Assembly: GCF_016862555.1 (NCBI RefSeq)
Contig: NZ_BONE01000035.1
Location: forward strand, 1-64,000
DNA from: Asanoa siamensis
Lineage (GTDB): Bacteria > Actinomycetota > Actinomycetes > Mycobacteriales > Micromonosporaceae
Direction: 5' to 3'
DNA length: 64,000 nt
A program made the translations under genes and the position numbers. Positions 28,960-38,500 of the stretch are shown in pieces; the first letter of the stretch is position 1; each line of letters begins with the position of its first letter. The notes beneath the pieces are model-generated. The model was not told the origin of the DNA. It saw only the letters and a list, made by a program, of their open reading frames with translations, and did not search any database.

Positions 28960-30498
28960 ATGGCGGTGGAGCATGTCGATGTCCTGATCGTCGGCGCCGG
29001 GATCTCCGGCATCGGGGCCGGTCGGTACCTCAAGACGGAGGTGCCCGGCAAGACGTTCGTGATCCTCGAGGGGCGCGGCGCGTCCGGCGGCACCTGGGAC
29101 CTGTTCCGCTATCCCGGGACGCGCTCCGACTCCGACCTGCACACGTTCGGCTACGCGTTCAAGCCGTGGCTCGACCAGGAGGCGATCGCGTCGGCGCCGC
29201 GGATCCTGGCCTACCTGCGGGAGACCGCGACCGAGAACGGCCTGGACCCGCACATCCGCTACCACCATCGGGTACGCGGGGCGTCGTTCGACTCATCGAC
29301 AGCATTGTGGTCGGTCGACGTGGACGGTCCCGCCGGTGCGACGGCGTTCACGGCGCGCTGGCTGTTCTGCGCCGGCGGCTACTACCGCTACGACGCGGGC
29401 TTCGCGCCACGGTTCGAAGGGCAGGACAGCTTCGAGGGTACGATCGTCCACCCGCAACACTGGCCGGAAGACCTTGACTGGCAGGGCAAGCGGGTCGTGG
29501 TGATCGGCAGCGGCGCGACCGCCGTGACGATCGTGCCCGCGATGGCCGGCACCGCCGCGCACGTGACGATGCTGCAGCGCACGCCGACCTACATCATGTC
29601 GATGCCCACGAAGGACGCGATCGGCAACGCACTGAAGAAATACCTCGGCCCGAAGCGCGGGTACGCCTGGACGCGGCGCAAGAACATCACGATGCAGCGC
29701 TGGATCTGGCGCTTCTGCCAGCGGCACCCCGACCGGGCCCGCCGGTTGATCCGCCGGCTCAACGCCCGCAGCCTGCCGCCGGGCTACCCGGTCGACGAGC
29801 ATTTCCGGCCGCCGTACAACCCGTGGGACCAACGCCTCTGCCTGGTGCCCGACGGCGACCTGTTCGCGGCGATCCGCGCCGGCACGGCGGAGATGGTCAC
29901 GGACCACATCGACCGCTTCACGGCGGACGGCATCCTGCTGGCCTCCGGGCGCCACCTGCCCGCCGACGTGATCGTCACCGCCACGGGCCTCAACGTGCAG
30001 GCGCTGGGCGGCATCACCCTGACCGTCGACGGCGTGCCGGTCCGCGTCAACGACACGATCGCCTACAAGGGCATGATGCTGTCGGGGGTGCCGAACTTCG
30101 CGTTCATCGTGGGCTACACGAACTCGTCGTGGACGCTCAAGGTGGGCCTGCTCTGCGAGCACTTCTGCCTGCTGCTGGCCCACATGGACAAGCACGGCTA
30201 CGAGATCTGCCGCCCGGAGCCGGCGGACCCGACGATGCCGACGCGCCCGTTCCTGGACTTCGACGCGGGTTACATCCGCCGGGTCATCGACCACCTCCCC
30301 CGCCAGGGCGACCGCCTACCGTGGCTGACCTCGATGCACTACCACACGGACGTCAAACTCCTCCGCGCCGACCGCGTCACGGACCCGGAACTCCACTTCG
30401 GCCGCGCGGCGAACGTCGCTGAAGACGATCAACATCAAGATCTACGGAGACCGGATCGTCCAGGTGCAACACCTGACCGCTCCGGGCTTCCGCGCTGA
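28960..30498 (+). CDS. Flavin-containing/Baeyer-Villiger-type monooxygenase
   Basis: A 512-residue FAD/NADPH monooxygenase. Visible motifs are the FAD fold VGAGISGIGAG near residue 12, GGTWDLFRYPG, the FxGxxxHxxxWP fingerprint FEGTIVHPQHWP at 158-169, and the NADPH fold VVVIGSGATA near 182. The family oxidises ketones to esters or hydroxylates lipophilic substrates. Homologues end soon after TDPELHF; here about 30 extra residues (from about 30405) run antisense into the Uma2 gene. Start ATG 28960 is chosen from family length. Divergent from pucR. Confidence 0.87.
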   Translation: MAVEHVDVLIVGAGISGIGAGRYLKTEVPGKTFVILEGRGASGGTWDLFRYPGTRSDSDLHTFGYAFKPWLDQEAIASAPRILAYLRETATENGLDPHIRYHHRVRGASFDSSTALWSVDVDGPAGATAFTARWLFCAGGYYRYDAGFAPRFEGQDSFEGTIVHPQHWPEDLDWQGKRVVVIGSGATAVTIVPAMAGTAAHVTMLQRTPTYIMSMPTKDAIGNALKKYLGPKRGYAWTRRKNITMQRWIWRFCQRHPDRARRLIRRLNARSLPPGYPVDEHFRPPYNPWDQRLCLVPDGDLFAAIRAGTAEMVTDHIDRFTADGILLASGRHLPADVIVTATGLNVQALGGITLTVDGVPVRVNDTIAYKGMMLSGVPNFAFIVGYTNSSWTLKVGLLCEHFCLLLAHMDKHGYEICRPEPADPTMPTRPFLDFDAGYIRRVIDHLPRQGDRLPWLTSMHYHTDVKLLRADRVTDPELHFGRAANVAEDDQHQDLRRPDRPGATPDRSGLPR

Positions 30499-30970
30499 GC
30501 ACGTAGTGCTCACCCTCGAGCCGGAAGACTCGCAGCAACAGCTCGGAGGTGTCGCCCTCGACGAGTAGGTAGGTGGGAATGCCGGCCTCGGCATAGAGAT
30601 TCATCTTGGTCACTCGGTCGGCGACCGCGTTGCTGGGCGAGACGATCTCACACACCAGCCGCACCTCACGGGCTTCGACCACCGTGCCGTCGAGGTCTGT
30701 GTCGGCCACGACAAGATCCGGTATCACGATCCGGTCGGTCTTGAGACGAAGGTTGATCGTTTCGTACAGGACCAGCCCACCGGCCTCCACCGCGGCGTTG
30801 AAGGCCACCACGAGCTGGACGCTCAGGTGTTGGTGGCGTTTTGAAGGCGCGGGGCTCACCAGAAGACTCCCGTCGATGAGTTCAATGCGGGCAGGGGTCT
30901 CGCCGAGCTGGAAGAAGTCCTCCTCGCTCAGCGGCCCTAGGCTGACCCAGTCGAGAGTTGCCACCGTCAT
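30377..30970 (-). CDS. Uma2-family PD-(D/E)XK nuclease-like protein (copy 2)
   Basis: A 197-residue Uma2 protein, paralogous to the 14550 gene: IELIDGSLLVSPAPSKRHQ, IVIPDLVVADTDLDG and LVCEIVSPSNAVADR align closely. The natural end is expected near residue 184 (DLDVDRLQ, about 30419), as in copy 1. A further 13 arginine- and proline-rich residues run on antisense to the monooxygenase tail, so both convergent genes appear to lack their original stops. The catalytic Asp and Glu remain, so the protein may still fold. Confidence 0.78.
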   Translation of the reverse strand: MTVATLDWVSLGPLSEEDFFQLGETPARIELIDGSLLVSPAPSKRHQHLSVQLVVAFNAAVEAGGLVLYETINLRLKTDRIVIPDLVVADTDLDGTVVEAREVRLVCEIVSPSNAVADRVTKMNLYAEAGIPTYLLVEGDTSELLLRVFRLEGEHYVLSAEARSGQVLHLDDPVSVDLDVDRLQRRSPRGRSGVPGP

Positions 30971-30999: not shown

Positions 31000-31968
31000 T
31001 TACGCCCCCACCGGTACCGCGCTGCGGGCGGCGGCGAGGGTGAGGGCGCGGTGCAGCAGGCGGGAGTCGCCGAGTAGGGCGCGGAGGCGGCGTTCCAGAC
31101 CCGCGATCGGGATCAGGTTCTGGGGTGCGCGCGGGTCCTTGTAGGGCGTCGAGGCGAATCTCGGCAGCGTGACCAGCGACAGGTCCGCCAGCTCGATCGC
31201 CTCCTGCGACGGCAGCTCCGTCGAGCACTCCACGCGCACGATGCCCGCCCACGGTGCGCCGGTCGGGCCGGGCAGGCGCAGGTACCAGGTGTAGCCGCCC
31301 CAGGCCGTGCCCATCAGGAACACCGGTGAGCGTTCGCCCGGGCGCAGCGCCGTGACCACCGCGGTCAGGGTCGCGTCCAGATACTGGCTCTGCTGCGTCT
31401 TGACGTAGCCGATCGTGCGGGTGAGCTGCCGGCGGTTGCGCAGCGGGCCGTCGACCACCAGCAGCTCCTGCGACTCGCCGCGGACCTGGGTGGAGACCGC
31501 CACCTCCAGCGCCGTCAGCGGGCCCTGCACCGCCGGGATCAGCCGGGCCGGGTCGGGGGCGCCGGAGATCTGGCGTACGCCGTAGCGGACCGAGCCCGCC
31601 GTGATGTCCTGCGCCGTCGGTGACGTCGTGAACAGGCCGCGCTCGACCAGGGCACCGGCCAGCGACGCCGCTCCCGCGCGCAGGTCACAACGGACCACAC
31701 CCGCCGCGTACGAGGCCGCCAGGCCCGGATGCGACGTGCCGTCCTCCTCCCGCGTCCACAGGCTCGCGTCGATCCGGCGCACACCGTCGACCAGCAGCAC
31801 CACGTCGGGTGCGCGGACCGTCGGCGGCGCCGTCAGCGGTCGCCAGGCGGCGGCCGGCAGCTCGACGTCGGTGTTGACCTGCGCGCTGCTCTGGGTGGCC
31901 GGCGCACTGGAGGCCTCGAACGAGGCACCGTACGACGGATCCCAGTTGTCGACGAAATAGCTGGTCAT
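31000..31968 (-). CDS. NurA-domain-like nuclease
   Basis: A 322-residue protein that I read as a NurA-type nuclease. Acidic motifs typical of the NurA fold are present: VVLLVDGVRRIDASL with Asp61, LLVVDGPLRNR with Asp173 followed by GYVKT, and VRVECSTE near 260; the C-terminal segment LIPIAGLERRLRALLGD also fits. NurA works with HerA to resect DNA ends. The start ATG overlaps the sbcC stop by four bases (ATGA), and a HerA-like gene is upstream in the same operon. The assignment is from motif and context; a profile search would settle it. Confidence 0.72.
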   Translation of the reverse strand: MTSYFVDNWDPSYGASFEASSAPATQSSAQVNTDVELPAAAWRPLTAPPTVRAPDVVLLVDGVRRIDASLWTREEDGTSHPGLAASYAAGVVRCDLRAGAASLAGALVERGLFTTSPTAQDITAGSVRYGVRQISGAPDPARLIPAVQGPLTALEVAVSTQVRGESQELLVVDGPLRNRRQLTRTIGYVKTQQSQYLDATLTAVVTALRPGERSPVFLMGTAWGGYTWYLRLPGPTGAPWAGIVRVECSTELPSQEAIELADLSLVTLPRFASTPYKDPRAPQNLIPIAGLERRLRALLGDSRLLHRALTLAAARSAVPVGA

Positions 31969-34439
31969 ATCCCGCTCCGGGTGATGTGCGCCGTGCGGGC
32001 GTCCTTGGTCACGTCGAACCGCACCGGCACCCGCTCGGCCAGCGCACCCACGTGGGTGACCACCCCGACCATCCGGTCGCCGCGGGCCGCCAGGCCCTCC
32101 AGCGTCGCCGCCACGGTGTCCAGCGTCGCCGCGTCCAGCGTCCCGAAGCCCTCGTCCAGCAGGATCGACTCCAGGCTGGCCGCCGACGTCGACATCCCGG
32201 CCAGCTGCTCGGCCAGCGCCAGCGCGAGTGCCAGCGACGCCTGGAACGTCTCCCCGCCCGAGAGCGTCCGGACACCGCGCCGCAGCCCGGCGTCGTGGTG
32301 GTCGACGACCGAGAACTCGCCCTTCTCGTGCACCAGGTCGTACTGCCCGCCCGACAGCTCCCGCAGGATCCGCGACGCGCCCTCGACCAGCAGGTCGAGC
32401 GCCTCCTCCAGCAGCCAGCGCTCGAAGTTGTTGGCCCGCAGGTGACCGGCCAGCGACTTGGCCACCTGGCCGTCGCGCTCGTGCGCGGACCGCTTGTCGA
32501 GCAGACCCTGCGCCTGCGCGCGGCGCTCCTCGACCCGGTCGTGCGCCGCCGTCGCGCGCTCGACCGCCACCGTGGCCGCCCGGACGTGGTCGTCGGGTGC
32601 CGGCAGGCCGGCCTCGACGAACGCCGCGTCGAGCCGCTCCCGCGCCGCGGCGACCGTAGCCGCGGCCTCGGCGGCGCCGGCCGCCAGCGCGGACCGGGCC
32701 GACCGTCGGTTGTCCACTTCGGACGACGACCAGCCGGACAGTGCCGACCAGGACGCGGCCAGGTCCTCACGGGCCGCGGCCGGCGGGCCGAACCGGGCCA
32801 CCGCGTCGCGGGTCGCGTCGAACTCCGTCCACCCGCGGGTCAGCCGCTGCTCCGCCGCGGCGCGGCCGGCGTTGGCCGTGCGCGCCTGCTCGCGGGCCGA
32901 CTTCAGCGCGGCGACCGCGCCGTCGAGCGTCTTCTGCAGCGACGCCAGCGTCGCCAGCTCACGGCGCAGCGCGGCGACACCCGGCGAGGTGGCGAGCTGC
33001 TCGTCGAGGGCCGCCAGCCGGACCACGAGCTGCTCGTGCTGGGCGCGGGCCCGGTCGAGGGTACGTTCCAGTGCGCGCGCCGCCTTCTCCCGCTCGGCGA
33101 CCTGGGCCTGCGCCTTCTCGTCGGCGGCCTTGGCGGCGTGGCCGGCCTTCTCCGCCGCCGGCACCGCGGACGACGACGGCACGGCGGGCACGGTCGACAC
33201 GGGCTGTTCGCAGACCGGGCAGGGCGCGCCGGCGTGCAGGTGCACCCGCAGCGCGCCGGCCCGGTCGGCCGCCTGCGCGTCCTGGTAGGCCCGCCGGGCC
33301 GCCTCCAGCTCGGCGGCCGTTCGCAGGGCCTGGGCGCGGGCCTTCTCCAGCGCCGCCGCCGCGGACCGGTGCTCGGCGACCGCGCTCGACAGTCCGTCCT
33401 GGAGCGACGCCGCCTCGGCGGTCACCGCGTCGTGCTCCTCGTGCGCGCGCAGCAGCAGGCGCAGCGCCGCCGGGTCGCCGGCCGCGGCCAACTCGCCGCG
33501 CAGCTTCTCCTCGCGGTCCTCGGCGGCTGTGACCGCCTCGGCGGCCGTGGTGGCCGCCTCCCGGGCGGTCGTCGCCGCCTCGGCCAGCTCCGTGACGCCG
33601 CGCGGCGGGCGGACCCGGTCGAGCAGCGCGATCTCGTCGTCGAGGGCGGCGAGCCCCGCGGTGACCTCGGCCGCCAGCCGCTGCGCCTCGGCGAGCGCGG
33701 GCATCCCCTCGGTGACCCGGGTCGCCAGGGCCAGCATCGCGTCGACCCGCTCGGCGGCCGCCGCGAGCGCCTCGTCGGAGGTGTCGTCGAGGCCGGCCAG
33801 GAGCTGGTCGACCGCGCGCAGGTCGGCGTCGGCCTGCTGCGCGCGGGCGGTGGCGCGGCGCTGGATGTCCTCGTAGACGTGCAGCCCGAGCAGGTTGACC
33901 AGGATCTGCTGGCGGGTGGCCGGCTTGGCGTGCAGGAAGTCGGCGAACTGGCCCTGCGGGAGGATCACGCAGCTCGTGAACTGCTCGTACGGCAGCCCGA
34001 CCGCGTGCAGCACCGCCTCGTCCATCTCGGCGGGCGTGCCGGCCAGCACGTCACCCAGGTCCTCGGGCGTCATCCCGGTGTCGAGTTTGGACACGTCGAA
34101 GTTGTCGGGCATCTGCTGCAGCCCGGCGCCGCCGGTCTTCACGTTGCCGCGGCTGTCCCGGCGGACGACCCGCGTGGCCACGTAGCGGGCGCCGCCGGAC
34201 TCGAAGACCAGCCGGACCCGGGCCTCGGTCGCCGACGGCGACAGCGCGTTCGCGATGCCCCGGCTGCTTCCCCACCGCGGCACCTGACCGTAGAGCGCGA
34301 AACAGATCGCGTCGAGCACAGTGGACTTGCCGGCACCGGTCGGCCCGACGAGCGCGAAGAAGTCGGCATCGGTGAAGTCGACGGTCGTCTCGTCCCGGAA
34401 GACGGTGAACCCCGCCATGTCCAACCGAAGGGGTCTCAT
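31965..34439 (-). CDS. sbcC: SbcC, Rad50-like SMC exonuclease subunit
   Basis: An 824-residue ATPase of the SbcCD complex, which cuts hairpins and trims DNA ends. It has the P-loop GPTGAGKST at residues 32-40, long charged coiled coils, the zinc hook CPVC at 407-410, the ABC signature LSGGETFQASLAL and Walker B ILLDEGFGTLDA near the C-terminus. It is somewhat shorter than E. coli SbcC, as in other actinomycetes. Its Shine-Dalgarno GAGG lies in a hairpin after sbcD, and its stop overlaps the nurA-like start. Confidence 0.92.
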   Translation of the reverse strand: MRPLRLDMAGFTVFRDETTVDFTDADFFALVGPTGAGKSTVLDAICFALYGQVPRWGSSRGIANALSPSATEARVRLVFESGGARYVATRVVRRDSRGNVKTGGAGLQQMPDNFDVSKLDTGMTPEDLGDVLAGTPAEMDEAVLHAVGLPYEQFTSCVILPQGQFADFLHAKPATRQQILVNLLGLHVYEDIQRRATARAQQADADLRAVDQLLAGLDDTSDEALAAAAERVDAMLALATRVTEGMPALAEAQRLAAEVTAGLAALDDEIALLDRVRPPRGVTELAEAATTAREAATTAAEAVTAAEDREEKLRGELAAAGDPAALRLLLRAHEEHDAVTAEAASLQDGLSSAVAEHRSAAAALEKARAQALRTAAELEAARRAYQDAQAADRAGALRVHLHAGAPCPVCEQPVSTVPAVPSSSAVPAAEKAGHAAKAADEKAQAQVAEREKAARALERTLDRARAQHEQLVVRLAALDEQLATSPGVAALRRELATLASLQKTLDGAVAALKSAREQARTANAGRAAAEQRLTRGWTEFDATRDAVARFGPPAAAREDLAASWSALSGWSSSEVDNRRSARSALAAGAAEAAATVAAARERLDAAFVEAGLPAPDDHVRAATVAVERATAAHDRVEERRAQAQGLLDKRSAHERDGQVAKSLAGHLRANNFERWLLEEALDLLVEGASRILRELSGGQYDLVHEKGEFSVVDHHDAGLRRGVRTLSGGETFQASLALALALAEQLAGMSTSAASLESILLDEGFGTLDAATLDTVAATLEGLAARGDRMVGVVTHVGALAERVPVRFDVTKDARTAHITRSGI

Positions 34440-34441
34440 GC

Positions 34442-34466
34442 CTCGACCTCACTTCGTGAGATCGAG
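34442..34466 (-). promoter_or_regulatory. Hairpin covering the sbcC Shine-Dalgarno
   Basis: CTCGACCTCAC (34442-34452) and GTGAGATCGAG (34456-34466) pair at 10 of 11 positions around a three-base loop. On the minus-strand mRNA the right arm contains GAGG seven bases before the sbcC ATG. The stem could hold back sbcC translation until ribosomes or a factor open it. Confidence 0.5.
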
Positions 34467-34512
34467 CAGGAGCCCTGGGTCGCTGAGCCACCTGGTTCGG
34501 TCGCAAGCTCCC

Positions 34513-35658
34513 TCACGCCGACGCCTCCTCGTAAAGCTCGTCGAACAGGTCCCGTACGCCGTCGTCCTCGACGCCCCGGGATTCGAGGTAGTCGGCGAAC
34601 AGCTCGCGTGGTGAGCGGCCGGCCCGTTCCTCGGCCCGTGGCCCCGGCGCAGACGCGACCAGGTCCGGGTCGATCCGCACCTCCAGCGCCCGCGGCAGCA
34701 GTTCCTGCACCTCCTCGCGCAGCCCCGCCCGCGGCGTCTCGCGCACGTAGACCCGCAGCCACGCCTCGCCGGGATCGACCGTGGCGAGCTGCTCCAGCGT
34801 GCCGCGCAGCGTGCGCAGGGGCACTGCGGCCGTCACCGGCACCTCGCGGACCTTGGCCGCCGCCTTCGCACCGACGTCGACGATCGACACGGCGGGCACG
34901 TTCTCGGCCTCGCCGAAGTCGATCGCCAGCGGGCTGCCGCTGTAGCGCACCGGGCAGGGGCCGAGCACCGTCTGCGCCCTGTGCAGGTGGCCGAGCGCGA
35001 CGTAGTGGGTGGTGGTCGGGAACACGGTGGCCGGCACGGCGTAGCCCAGCACGGTCTGCGCCTCGCGCTCCCCGCCGCCCTGGCTCGCGCCGACGACCGT
35101 CACGTGCGCGGTCACCAGGTTGACCACGCCCGGCTCCCCGAAGCCTTCCGTGAGCTTGCCGAGCAGCCGCGACAGGTGGTCGGCGTACGTCTGGGTCGCC
35201 TCGGCGGCGGTCAGGTCGTACATCTCGACCGCGCGGACCGCGTACCGCTGGGACAGGAACGGCAGGGCGACCAGCCGCCACCGCTCGCCGCCGGCGGTCG
35301 TGCCCTCGATGACGTGCTCGGCGGGATTTTCCCGGACGCTGCCGCGCAGCGTGATGCCGGCCGCGTCGGCCCACGGCCGCAGCGCGTCGAGCGCCGCGCC
35401 GTTGTCGTGGTTGCCGCCGATCGCCACCACGTCGGCGCCGGTGCGGCGCAGGGCCGACAGCGCGCGGGTGACCAGCCTGGTCGAGTCGGGCGTCGGGGTC
35501 GCGGTGTCGTACAGGTCACCGGCCACGATCACCAGGTCGGGTTTCTCCGCGCGGGCGATCTCGACCACCTGCGCGAGCACCGCGACGTGCTCCTCGGCCC
35601 TCGACTGTCCCTTGAGGACCTTGCCGACGTGCCAGTCGGAGGTGTGCAGGACGCGCAC
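34513..35658 (-). CDS. sbcD: SbcD, Mre11-like nuclease subunit
   Basis: A 381-residue manganese-dependent calcineurin-fold nuclease, partner of SbcC. Phosphoesterase motifs are complete: TSDWHVGK (Asp8, His10), AGDLYD (47-51), GGNHDN (81-86), and later VTAHVTV and LGHLHRAQ. The GTG at 35658 is preceded by a strong AGGAGG nine bases away. The gene begins 12 bases after the herA-like gene and ends 73 bases before sbcC, so this is one operon. No frame damage is seen. Confidence 0.92.
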   Translation of the reverse strand: MRVLHTSDWHVGKVLKGQSRAEEHVAVLAQVVEIARAEKPDLVIVAGDLYDTATPTPDSTRLVTRALSALRRTGADVVAIGGNHDNGAALDALRPWADAAGITLRGSVRENPAEHVIEGTTAGGERWRLVALPFLSQRYAVRAVEMYDLTAAEATQTYADHLSRLLGKLTEGFGEPGVVNLVTAHVTVVGASQGGGEREAQTVLGYAVPATVFPTTTHYVALGHLHRAQTVLGPCPVRYSGSPLAIDFGEAENVPAVSIVDVGAKAAAKVREVPVTAAVPLRTLRGTLEQLATVDPGEAWLRVYVRETPRAGLREEVQELLPRALEVRIDPDLVASAPGPRAEERAGRSPRELFADYLESRGVEDDGVRDLFDELYEEASA

Positions 35659-35670
35659 GGGATGGACCTC

Positions 35671-37410
35671 CTAGAACGGGATGTCGTCGTCGGACAGCGC
35701 GCCCGACCGCGAGCCGACCACCGCGAACGGGTCGGCCGACTGGGTGACCGAGCGCAGCGAGCCGGTCGGCGCCGCGCCCGCCTCGGAGTGCCGGGTCGCC
35801 CACGACGGGAACGGGAACTCTAGACAGAGCGGCACCGGGATGTCGGGCTGGTTGACGAACATGGTGCCGGGCTTGGCGAGCAGCACCCGCTGCCGCTGGG
35901 CGGGCGGCAGGAAGCCGTACTCCGGGCGCGACGCCTCGGCGGGGTCGAGCCGGCCGACCACCCGTACGGCCGAGTTCGTGACGATCCGGCGCTCGACCTC
36001 GCTCGCCGTCTGCTGCGCGCCGACCAGGATCACGCCGAGCGAGCGGCCGCGCTCGGCGATGTCGAGCAGCACCTCCTTGATGGGCGACGAGCCCTCGCGC
36101 GGCGCGTATTTGTTGAGCTCGTCGAGGACCACGAAGAGCAGCGGCTTGGCGGTGCCCTTCTTCTCCTTGCGCTCGAACTCCTTCTTGAGCGTCACGCCGA
36201 CCACGAACCGCTGCGCGCGGTCGGGCAGGTTGTGCAGGTCGACGACGGTGACCTGGGCGCTCTCGTCGGTGTTGATCTGGTGCGGCCGCCGGGTGGCCAG
36301 GTCGCCGCGGATCAACCGGCCGAGGTCGCGCTTGCTGGCGATCAGCCGGCGGGCGAACGCGTTGATGGTGCCGAGCCCGACCGCGCTGCCCGTCCAGCCG
36401 TGCCGGGTCTCGTCGTCGGAGAGTTGCGCGACGACGAAGTCGACCAGGTCGGCGTAGGAGCTGAGCCGGGTGCCGTCGATCGCGACCCCACCGTCGGCCG
36501 GCACCGCGTGCCGGGCCAGATGGGCGGTCACCGCGTGCACCACCATGGTGTATTGCTGCCGCTCGTCGTCGGCGTCGGCGAAGACGTAGGGCAGCAGACC
36601 GCCGCCGCAGAACTCCTCGAGCGTCCAGTAGAAGCTGTCGACGCCGGAGAGCCGACTGCTCACGTCGGGCGTGCCGGACGCGTCGCCCAGCCGCGGCGGC
36701 GCGTAGACCCGCACGTCGTCGAACGGCTTGGCCGGCAGGCCGAGCCCGGCGTAGGCGGCCGTCGTCCGGTCGTCGAGCTTGACGTTGGGGTGGTCGAGGA
36801 AGAGCAGGTCCTCGCCCTTGACGTTGAAGATGAGCGCCTTGGCGTTGACGGCGTCGCCACCGAGCGCACCCGAGTTGAACACCGAGTAGAGCAGGAACGT
36901 CGCGAAGCTGGTCTTCGTGGCGACGCCGGAGATGCCGGAGATCGACACGTGCGCGCCGCGGGTGCCGTCGAGGAAGTCGGCGTTGAGGTAGACCGGGATG
37001 CCGTCGCGTCCCGTACCCATCGGGATCTGCCGTTCCATCCGGTCGAAGTGCAGCGCCGCGGCCCGCAGGTCGCCGGTGGCCCGGTGCACCATCGCGCCCG
37101 GCGCGGGCGGGACGTAGAGCTCGGGGTCGACCCGGGTGACGGTGATCTCGGCCGCCTCCTGCACCTGGGCGGGCAGCGTGCCGTCGGCGATCGAGAAGAC
37201 GTCGGAGTCGAAGACCGCGCCCTCGTGCCGGGCGCGCACCTGGGTCACCACGCCGGCGATCCGCACGGGCGGGCGATCGGGCAGCTCACGGGTCGTCACC
37301 ACGACGTCGTCGAGCTGCAGGTAGCTGCCCGGCGAGACCGCCGTCCAGAACTGCAGCGGAGTGGCGTCGGAGGTGCCGAGCACCCGACCGACCGCACTCT
37401 GCTCACCCAT
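35671..37410 (-). CDS. herA: HerA-like bipolar DNA helicase/ATPase
   Basis: A protein of 579 residues if started at ATG 37410 (MGEQSAVGRVLGTSDATPLQF), which fits the family N-terminus; ATG 37434 in the same frame adds eight residues and neither has a convincing Shine-Dalgarno. The HAS-barrel-like N-terminal region is followed by a HerA/FtsK-type ATPase: P-loop-like GISGVATKTSF, Walker B FVVLDELNKYAP, ERGRSLGVILVGAQQ and an arginine-rich end. HerA pairs with NurA to drive end resection. It heads the sbcD-sbcC-nurA operon. Confidence 0.82.
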   Translation of the reverse strand: MGEQSAVGRVLGTSDATPLQFWTAVSPGSYLQLDDVVVTTRELPDRPPVRIAGVVTQVRARHEGAVFDSDVFSIADGTLPAQVQEAAEITVTRVDPELYVPPAPGAMVHRATGDLRAAALHFDRMERQIPMGTGRDGIPVYLNADFLDGTRGAHVSISGISGVATKTSFATFLLYSVFNSGALGGDAVNAKALIFNVKGEDLLFLDHPNVKLDDRTTAAYAGLGLPAKPFDDVRVYAPPRLGDASGTPDVSSRLSGVDSFYWTLEEFCGGGLLPYVFADADDERQQYTMVVHAVTAHLARHAVPADGGVAIDGTRLSSYADLVDFVVAQLSDDETRHGWTGSAVGLGTINAFARRLIASKRDLGRLIRGDLATRRPHQINTDESAQVTVVDLHNLPDRAQRFVVGVTLKKEFERKEKKGTAKPLLFVVLDELNKYAPREGSSPIKEVLLDIAERGRSLGVILVGAQQTASEVERRIVTNSAVRVVGRLDPAEASRPEYGFLPPAQRQRVLLAKPGTMFVNQPDIPVPLCLEFPFPSWATRHSEAGAAPTGSLRSVTQSADPFAVVGSRSGALSDDDIPF

Positions 37411-37541
37411 CGCTCCCACTACCACGACTCGCATCTTGCAACATCAGTACGACCAGCTCCCAGCCGACTCGCGGGAGGGTGACAGATGAGATGAAAGAGA
37501 GTTTCACCCTTTTGGGGCGGGTACGCGGCGATGCTCGGCGA

Positions 37542-38221
37542 TCACCTCGTCACCAACGGACGCAGCGCGGCCGCCCGCGCGCGCCGCCAGCCGGCGATGC
37601 CCGGCATCGTCGCGTCCTGGATCGTCGCGGCGCGGATGCTCCACATCCCCGCGAGGCCCACGACGAACCTGGACGCCTCCGGCGGCAGCGCCCGCAACAG
37701 CCGGTGAGCCCGCTCCGTCGACGCTTCCGGGCCGAGGACCTGACCGGTGGCGACGACGTCCGCGGCCTGCTGCGCGAGGTCGATCCACGGGGCGCCGGCC
37801 GCCGCGTACGCCCAGTCGAGCAGCACCGCGGATCCCGCGTCGACGGCCGTGTTGTCGAGGCGGACGTCGCGTCGGTCCACTGCCGTTCCGTGACGCCGGG
37901 CGCCCAGGTGGTGGCCATCGCGACCCACGGCCCGTGCGTGACGGTGGCGAGCCGGCGGGGCGCCGGCACCGTGGGCGGCAGGGCGTCCAGGACCTCGGAC
38001 TCCTGCAGGATCATCCGGTGGTTGTGGGCACGTACGTCGGCGGACACGGCCTTGACGAAGACCTGCCGTCCGTCGGCGAGGCGCAGGGCCACGGCGGGGC
38101 CGGGTGACATGCCGCCGTGCAGGTCCGTGTGGCCGACGATCGCGGCGCCGAGCGCCCCGGCGACGGCCTCCCGCACCGGTGCCGGCGTGTCGGCCCAGGC
38201 GGCCCGCGCGGTGAACGTCAC
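37542..38221 (-). pseudogene. Broken aminoglycoside-phosphotransferase-like gene
   Basis: The N-lobe reads in one frame from GTG/ATG near 38221 (MTFTARAAWADTPAPV ... RQVFVKAVSAD ... HGPWVAMATTWAPGVTERQW) to about 37880. The C-lobe continues in the -1-shifted frame as RRDVRLDNTAVDAG, VLLDWAYAAAGAPWIDLAQ and onward to 37542. Intact APH proteins have about 80 residues between these parts and an HGD motif; here the middle is missing and the His-Gly is gone. An internal deletion with frameshift is the simplest reading, so the protein should be inactive. Confidence 0.75.
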
Positions 38222-38335
38222 GCGCGCATCCTAGGCCTCCCCCGGGCGAGGGAGGCGGATTCCCGCCGGCGGGGGAAGGCGTACGCGGCGCGGCTTGTGA
38301 CGGTTGCGCTGCCGCTATCTCTGGGGGGATCCGCG

Positions 38336-38500
38336 ATGACCACCGGCCGCCGGCGCAACCTGCTCGACCTGGCGTCACAGGAGTGGGGCCGGCCCCCACG
38401 GCCCTGGCTGATCGCCGCTGTCGGCGGCCTCGCGCTCACCGCCCTCGGCTGCACGCTCGTCGAAGTCGCCCGCAAGCGGGCATTGACGCCCGGGCCGTGA
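38336..38500 (+). CDS. Small single-pass membrane protein, unknown
   Basis: A 54-residue protein starting at ATG 38336 with GGGGGGAT seven bases upstream. A basic N-terminus (MTTGRRRNLLDL) precedes one hydrophobic segment, roughly residues 24-44 (PWLIAAVGGLALTALGCTLV), and a short basic tail. No family was recognised. The good ribosome site and codon pattern support it as a real gene. It sits between the broken phosphotransferase and the enoyl-CoA hydratase, 60 bases before the latter's likely GTG. Confidence 0.5.
   Translation: MTTGRRRNLLDLASQEWGRPPRPWLIAAVGGLALTALGCTLVEVARKRALTPGP

Follow-up and report, generated by a model that had tools for sequence, protein, structure and literature searches.

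Clusters of the genes mre11, rad50, herA and nurA have been described in Sulfolobus and other thermophilic archaea, where joint end resection by the four products was proposed. In bacteria, the HerA-NurA complex of Deinococcus radiodurans (PDB 7f6d, 7wrw, 7wrx) was reported to carry out translocation-coupled 5' resection in vitro. Here we consider a stretch of 64,000 nucleotides from the soil actinomycete Asanoa siamensis (contig NZ_BONE01000035.1, positions 1 to 64,000; the window), in which the genes of a HerA-like ATPase, SbcD, SbcC and a NurA nuclease make up one operon, herA-sbcD-sbcC-nurA. It is probable, in our judgment, that the four genes form a chromosomal operon for DNA-end processing and repair, which in bacteria corresponds to the mre11-rad50-herA-nurA cluster of archaea. 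The published work considered includes PMC9960219, PMC4663267, PMC2288612, PMC8223512, PMC6789036 and PMC5087735.

The operon brings together the same four functions as the archaeal cluster. It differs from the latter in having the bacterial SbcD and SbcC for Mre11 and Rad50, in the gene order, and in a NurA that is missed by the Pfam model PF09376. Bacterial and archaeal HerA-NurA were reported to be less than 20% identical.

With D. radiodurans the likeness extends to a HerA aligned over nearly its full length, to the shared P-loop GISGVATKT, and to the fold and catalytic residues of NurA. On the other hand, the acidic and basic residues of the HerA-NurA interface are only partly kept here. 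In A. siamensis the sbcCD genes share the operon with herA and nurA, whereas for D. radiodurans a 2015 paper stated that the connection of SbcCD with HerA-NurA remained to be uncovered. Also, an AdnAB-type pair is present in this genome, whereas the Deinococcus-Thermus phylum was described as having neither RecBCD nor AddAB.

Assignment of the four proteins

A first-pass annotation, made from the DNA letters alone, had named a HerA-like ATPase, SbcD, SbcC and a protein read as NurA. For HerA (P0001), this was borne out by a phmmer match to D. radiodurans HerA (drHerA, 7f6d_B) with E-value 2.1e-148 and 498 bits, in two stretches covering residues 11-291 and 319-552. The residues K175, T176, D220, D487, E488, R495 and R552 of drHerA, named in the literature as Walker A, Walker B, ASCE catalytic or pore residues, align with K174, T175, D209, D438, E439, R446 and R503 of the A. 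siamensis protein, all of them invariant in 16 rows. The idea that the P-loop GISGVATKT marks a dead ATPase was rejected: the P-loop of drHerA is identical, and ADP is bound there by way of K175 and T176.

Family models behaved differently. The search with PF01935, which the first-pass annotation had suggested as a check, gave no match to HerA at E-values up to 1, though the protein is a real homolog. Matches to the NCBIfam equivalogs were below the curated cut-offs, with 15.8 bits for NF042944 (850 needed) and 14.6 bits for NF040819 (970 needed). It seems that NF042944, NF040819 and PF01935 do not cover the bacterial HerA type. A divergent HerA on a long branch (38% to the first row of the alignment) was seen in a nurA-herA-sbcD cluster of genome G168 (locus L076), and it may represent a separate subfamily.

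The 322-residue NurA (P0004) had no match in Pfam, NCBIfam or PADLOC. The other suggested check, PF09376, likewise missed this real homolog: a search of the whole genome with the profile gave no match, while the same model did match in the Deinobacterium and Thermotoga maritima control genomes. In phmmer comparisons, the protein matched D. radiodurans NurA (drNurA, 7f6d_H) with E-value 4.6e-19 and 71.7 bits, and T. maritima NurA (TM1739, PDB 1zup) weakly, with E-value 0.031. An AlphaFold2 model built with 41 sequences had a mean predicted local distance difference test (pLDDT) score of 92.2 and a predicted template modeling (pTM) score of 0.90. In a Foldseek search of this model against the PDB, the top match was 7f6d_G (1.1e-17), followed by 1zup (1.1e-13, TM-score 0.65/0.71), which has the same RNase H-like fold.

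From the third rank onward, Foldseek listed TdpB (8wfd_G, 3.5e-5) and then endonuclease V chains. TdpB belongs to TdpAB, which we take to be a defence complex of a HerA-like ATPase and a NurA-like nuclease; its likeness to NurA is distant, twelve orders of magnitude weaker than that of drNurA. To our knowledge, SbcCD is not part of TdpAB, whereas it is linked to HerA-NurA here.

Mutation of each of D53, K201 and R309 in drNurA was reported to abolish nuclease activity. These residues align with D61, K190 and R280 of the A. siamensis protein if the numbering of 7f6d_H is that of the paper plus 20, an offset with which all three fall on the right letters. D61, K190 and R280 are invariant in 29 rows, as well as in a 41-row alignment that includes other phyla. 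Taken together, the sequence match to drNurA, the predicted fold and the catalytic residues support the reading of the protein as a NurA nuclease with a predicted RNase H-like fold. Given these sequence and fold matches, we did not accept the missing family-library matches as evidence against NurA. The HerA-NurA pair is probably under-annotated, because Pfam, NCBIfam and PADLOC miss NurA and give HerA weak matches at best.

The identities of SbcD and SbcC held up as well, and the matches of all four proteins are too strong to have arisen by chance. SbcD matched TIGR00619 at 2.8e-51, above the model cut-off, and it was the single match in the whole genome. Its residues D8, H10, D48, N83, H84, H185, H224 and H226 are invariant in 9 rows; we take these eight to belong to the phosphoesterase motifs. 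SbcC matched TIGR00618 with E-value 5.3e-76 and 256.4 bits, a score under the curated cut-off of 478.5, and had Pfam matches to PF13476 (4.3e-20) and PF13558 (8.5e-11). It carries a Walker A motif GPTGAGKST, a CPVC zinc hook, an LSGGE signature and a Walker B motif LLDEGFGTLD. Since no SbcD was found in the genome apart from that of the operon, the SbcCD encoded there is probably the housekeeping SbcCD of A. siamensis.

Spread of the operon among bacteria

We searched for NurA in 61 genomes of the order, 37 of them in the family (including the genome of the window) and 24 in other families. NurA was present in 39 genomes: 36 of the 37 within the family and 3 of the 24 elsewhere in the order. 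The one family genome with no match is 80% complete. Loci were fetched for 35 of the 38 other NurA-positive genomes.

All 35 loci contained NurA and SbcC, though some had these in part only; SbcD was present in 34 of the loci and HerA in 32. Both SbcD and HerA were missing from L041, at a contig end, while L042 and L044 had no HerA in the stretch fetched. The gene order was constant where the genes were present. Adjacent genes mostly overlapped (-4 or -1) or lay a short distance apart, and the largest interruptions, in L037, L039 and L045, were of about 1-3 kb. Two genes were divided over more than one frame, nurA in L031 and herA in L027.

The second survey covered 246 evenly drawn genomes of Actinomycetota, and HerA was accepted at an E-value of at most 1e-60. 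HerA was found in 44 of the genomes. With the genome of the window and G008 excluded, SbcD was present in 41 of the remaining 42 and NurA in 40, a count that includes a fragment of 37 positions in G237. HerA and SbcD were within 500 bases of each other in 31 of the 42, and in 29 herA, sbcD and nurA were all on the same strand in a span of 6 kb. Two gene orders were observed, nurA-herA-sbcD in 22 genomes (with G103, which has a one-base overlap, counted here) and herA-sbcD-nurA in 13. In the remaining 7, the contig with herA did not have all three genes, and most of these assemblies were fragmented. A loosened layout was seen in G130 and G108 (family f30), where herA is 10-14 kb from sbcD and nurA on the same strand; this layout could help to date the linkage.

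Beyond the phylum, we scanned named genomes with the HerA alignment and considered the best 80 of at least 571 loci. By their titles, 66 of these were from Actinomycetota and 14 were metagenome-assembled genomes (MAGs) labelled otherwise: Gemmatimonadota or Gemmatimonas, BD2-11 clade, Acidobacteriota, Gammaproteobacteria, Cyclobacteriaceae, Thermoflexus or plain bacterium. Such labels can be wrong; L085 and L087 are filed as Pseudomonadota, yet they cluster with Gemmatimonadota in the HerA tree.

In 70 of the 80 loci, SbcD followed HerA within 500 bases; it was farther away in 6 and not found in 4, i.e., in L084, where the contig ends, in L096 and L122, which have about 3 kb after HerA, and in L144. 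At least 6 kb of sequence downstream of HerA was available in 55 of the 80 loci and less than that in the other 25. All four genes were present in 53 of the 55. The order was herA-sbcD-sbcC-nurA in 52 of the 53 and nurA-herA-sbcD-sbcC in one, a Thermoflexus MAG of Chloroflexota (L118). Pseudonocardia thermophila (L144) has this HerA type with no SbcCD or NurA in about 9 kb on either side.

In a HerA tree of 41 rows, the window fell among Micromonospora and Actinoplanes, inside Micromonosporaceae. The label of gene order required 2 changes on this tree, compared to a mean of 9.8 in shuffles, and none of the 500 shuffles had a number as low. The pairwise distances of the four proteins in 54 loci and the window correlated at 0.964-0.982. 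Since relatedness was left in these distances, the correlation is a sign of co-inheritance and not of interaction.

We see that the operon is a general feature of one family (judged to be Micromonosporaceae from the tree), that it occurs frequently elsewhere in Actinomycetota, and that MAGs of other phyla have it too. The first-pass annotation had described four functions collected in an actinomycete; collected they are, yet the description was too narrow given this distribution. Conserved synteny in relatives, which it had named as a test, proved to be strong, as found in the 53 of 55 loci and in the 29 of 42 Actinomycetota genomes.

The operon is thus real and conserved, and it is built of known kinds of proteins; it is not a new kind of system. 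Archaeal clusters and the Deinococcus HerA-NurA were known before, and what is added here is the spread of the version linked to SbcCD. The four-gene module is much more widespread in bacteria than stated in a 2023 paper. Among literature titles and the openings of abstracts, we found no earlier report of a bacterial linkage of SbcCD to HerA-NurA, though one may already be in print.

A sequence motif shared by herA and recA

A promoter-like motif, GTCGTAC-N8-CAAGATG, was observed at the start of herA (Table 1). In 23 of 35 named Micromonosporaceae loci, GTCGTAC occurred at most 300 bases upstream of herA, followed in each case by N8-CANNATG. A fixed relaxed pattern matched 11 of 37 upstream regions of herA, while the number expected from shuffles was 0.0.

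The motif was also searched genome-wide. A stricter pattern produced 11 matches compared to 0 for the reversed control, and the pattern GTCRKAC-N8-YANRWTG produced 21 compared to 1. Eight of the 21 (L158, L163, L165, L171, L174, L175, L177 and L178) were read as promoter-like, in a sorting made after the matches had been viewed. The respective genes were herA, recA, an NAD-dependent DNA ligase, an ATP-dependent DNA ligase, and NUDIX, GyrI-like, HEAT-repeat and glyoxalase-like genes. For L158, L165, L171 and L174, the frame of the downstream gene is open through the motif, and it is a guess that the motif precedes the start codon. The matches L158, L171, L177 and L178 are tied to recA, to the two DNA ligase genes (at or near the start) and to the NUDIX gene.

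The motif resembles the RecA-NDp promoter, a likeness that we judged from the sequence ahead of recA in this genome and from the presumed consensus of that promoter. RecA-NDp was described as a damage promoter of Actinobacteria activated by PafBC. As a lead, the motif shared by herA and recA could be a local form of the RecA-NDp/PafBC promoter and a candidate element of its regulon. An SOS-type GAACACCTGTTC box is present upstream of recA; upstream of herA it was not found by the pattern tried. The shared motif, which is limited to a part of one family, hints at induction of the operon by DNA damage.

Role of the operon

Besides the operon, the genome contains an AdnAB-like pair of adjacent genes, each with a UvrD-helicase and a PD-(D/E)XK nuclease (PDDEXK_1) domain, as well as two Ku genes and one recA. 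A PDDEXK_1 match was found in 38 of 39 genomes tested; the exception, G212, has HerA-NurA. With the AdnAB-like pair present, we rejected the possibility that HerA-NurA substitutes for AdnAB in this host. HerA-NurA is an addition to the AdnAB-type enzyme in this genome and not a replacement.

For a role in end processing speak the protein identities, the conserved catalytic residues, the predicted fold of NurA, the linkage, the co-inheritance and the motif shared with recA. The first of these and the conserved linkage lend support to the 'complete DNA-end resection module' of the first-pass annotation. By family knowledge, SbcCD would open or clean blocked, hairpin or protein-bound ends. As the Deinococcus work suggests, the HerA hexamer may then pump duplex DNA into the NurA dimer, and NurA would degrade the 5' strand, leaving a 3' tail for RecA. 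The module would act beside the AdnAB-type helicase-nuclease, the operon would probably be induced by DNA damage, and SbcCD and HerA may be in physical contact and act in this order.

The joint operon suggests that SbcCD and HerA-NurA serve one repair pathway in bacteria too. A stronger version can be put forward tentatively, as a conjecture somewhat short of even chances: in many bacteria, SbcCD and HerA-NurA would be one damage-inducible machine, an ancient counterpart of the archaeal Mre11-Rad50-HerA-NurA, working in parallel to AdnAB and, in a part of Micromonosporaceae, switched on together with recA by a promoter of the PafBC/RecA-NDp type. If the four proteins do cooperate, bacteria that possess an AdnAB-type enzyme have retained another resection route beside it, one of the archaeal style. 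The spread of the operon allows for a direct test of the connection between SbcCD and HerA-NurA in bacteria that can be cultured, for example Micromonospora and Actinoplanes.

Several observations weigh against a role in repair, or against a single machine. Deleting both nurA and herA in D. radiodurans was reported to improve survival of ultraviolet light and mitomycin C about 10-fold, which makes the in vivo repair role disputed. HerA-NurA is dispensable for actinomycete repair in general, because NurA was found in so few genomes from other families of the order. The acidic residues D78, E80 and D81 of drHerA were reported to be needed for NurA binding and to align poorly outside Deinococcus; they align with D78, F80 and S81 here, so that one of three is kept. 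The motif-3 residues K299, K303, H305 and K306 of drNurA align with R270, T274, Y276 and K277, two of four being basic. Comparison of these partly kept partners therefore does not prove a conserved HerA-NurA interface.

The linkage and the motif have gaps as well. Two of the 55 loci break the linkage, L090 being without NurA and L144 without all three partners in the stretch considered, and L096 and L122 show no SbcD in the roughly 3 kb downstream of HerA. Ahead of herA, 12 of the 35 named Micromonosporaceae loci and all of the 18 loci from outside Micromonosporaceae have no GTCGTAC, while the fixed pattern is missing in 26 of the 37 upstream regions, including a part of the family and all more distant rows. 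Of the 21 genome-wide matches, nine are covered by a minus-strand frame and another four are unclear.

SbcCD and HerA-NurA could also be two independent machines that share just a promoter and damage regulation, with no joint substrate or contact. The loosened operon in some lineages, i.e., the distant herA of G130 and G108 and the herA not seen in the stretches of L042 and L044, fits this arrangement, as does the 2015 description of the connection in D. radiodurans as unresolved. We still consider independence rather unlikely, since the linkage survives the change between nurA-first and herA-first order and is seen in loci of several phyla, which is more than co-regulation usually demands, and since Mre11 was reported to interact with HerA in Sulfolobus.

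Degradation of invading DNA by HerA-NurA, with or without SbcCD, in the manner of other HerA-nuclease systems, is very unlikely as the function of the operon, and the 'defence module against foreign DNA' of the first-pass annotation found little support. HerA-nuclease pairs do serve in defence, as seen from an ATPase-nuclease anti-phage complex in the literature, and TdpB is a weaker structural neighbor of NurA. PADLOC models gave weak or partial matches for HerA ('Type III coevolved' 9.1e-7, mad8 2.7e-7), SbcC (mad3 5.8e-26, LmuB 4.8e-20) and SbcD, and none for NurA; such matches may occur in relatives of HerA or Rad50. For both HerA and NurA, the comparison with the Deinococcus pair gives far better scores than any PADLOC model does. 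Moreover, the operon was inherited with the family, as seen from the 36 of 37 genomes with NurA and from the HerA tree, it holds the sole SbcD, and its motif is common to recA.

The surroundings of the operon were considered in the same context. A Uma2-family gene of a putative restriction endonuclease (PF05685; PDC-S03) adjoins nurA, but among 35 loci of relatives just 4 were found to have it next to the operon. Nine further, hand-picked neighboring open reading frames (ORFs) had no PADLOC match at 1e-5, so a defence island around the operon was not supported, with the Uma2 gene as the exception. Pfam matches were found in 4 of 10 neighboring ORFs scanned, including an oxidoreductase and a family 3 glycosyl hydrolase.

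It is very unlikely that HerA works here as an FtsK-like pump in chromosome segregation, with NurA and SbcCD resolving trapped DNA: actinomycetes possess an FtsK of their own, NurA is scarce in other families of the order, and the motif is common to recA. A segregation role was proposed for HerA, a member of the FtsK-HerA superfamily, in archaea, which lack FtsK.

Gene starts, junctions and flanking genes

Coordinates of the features are given in Table 1. The positions and spacing of the ORFs given in the first-pass annotation were exact, with all four genes on the minus strand, a 12-base gap between herA and sbcD, a 73-base gap between sbcD and sbcC, and an ATGA overlap of sbcC and nurA.

Table 1. 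Features of the herA-sbcD-sbcC-nurA region, with positions in the window.
Feature	Position	Strand	Description
herA	35671-37434	minus	Deinococcus-type HerA/FtsK-like hexameric DNA translocase; 587 aa from 37434, 579 aa from 37410
sbcD	34513-35658	minus	Mre11-type phosphoesterase nuclease
sbcC	31965-34439	minus	Rad50-type ATPase
nurA	31000-31968	minus	NurA nuclease, predicted RNase H-like fold, 322 residues
Promoter-like motif GTCGTAC-N8-CAAGATG	37432-37453	minus	candidate RecA-NDp/PafBC-type damage-inducible promoter
Uma2 gene	30377-30970		directly downstream of nurA; PF05685 7.3e-26; PADLOC candidate family PDC-S03 3.9e-21

The annotated ATG of herA (37434) falls within the promoter-like motif. 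An alternative ATG at 37410 has GGGAG ahead of it, and a TTG is found at the same place in the congeners G001 and G004. Because the upstream ATG sits in the motif and GGGAG precedes the downstream one, the sequence makes 37410 (579 aa) the more likely translation start.

The gap between sbcD and sbcC (34440-34512) was also observed in the congeners G002 and G003, while this junction was a -4 or -1 overlap in the congeners G001, G004 and G005 and in most other loci fetched. Separation of the two genes thus seems to have taken place inside the genus.

Upstream of herA, the region 37542-38399 has a phosphotransferase-type reading, and its likely coding frame shifts part way. Two overlapping minus-strand ORFs are seen there, both with no match in Pfam; the region is possibly a disrupted gene or contains a sequence error.

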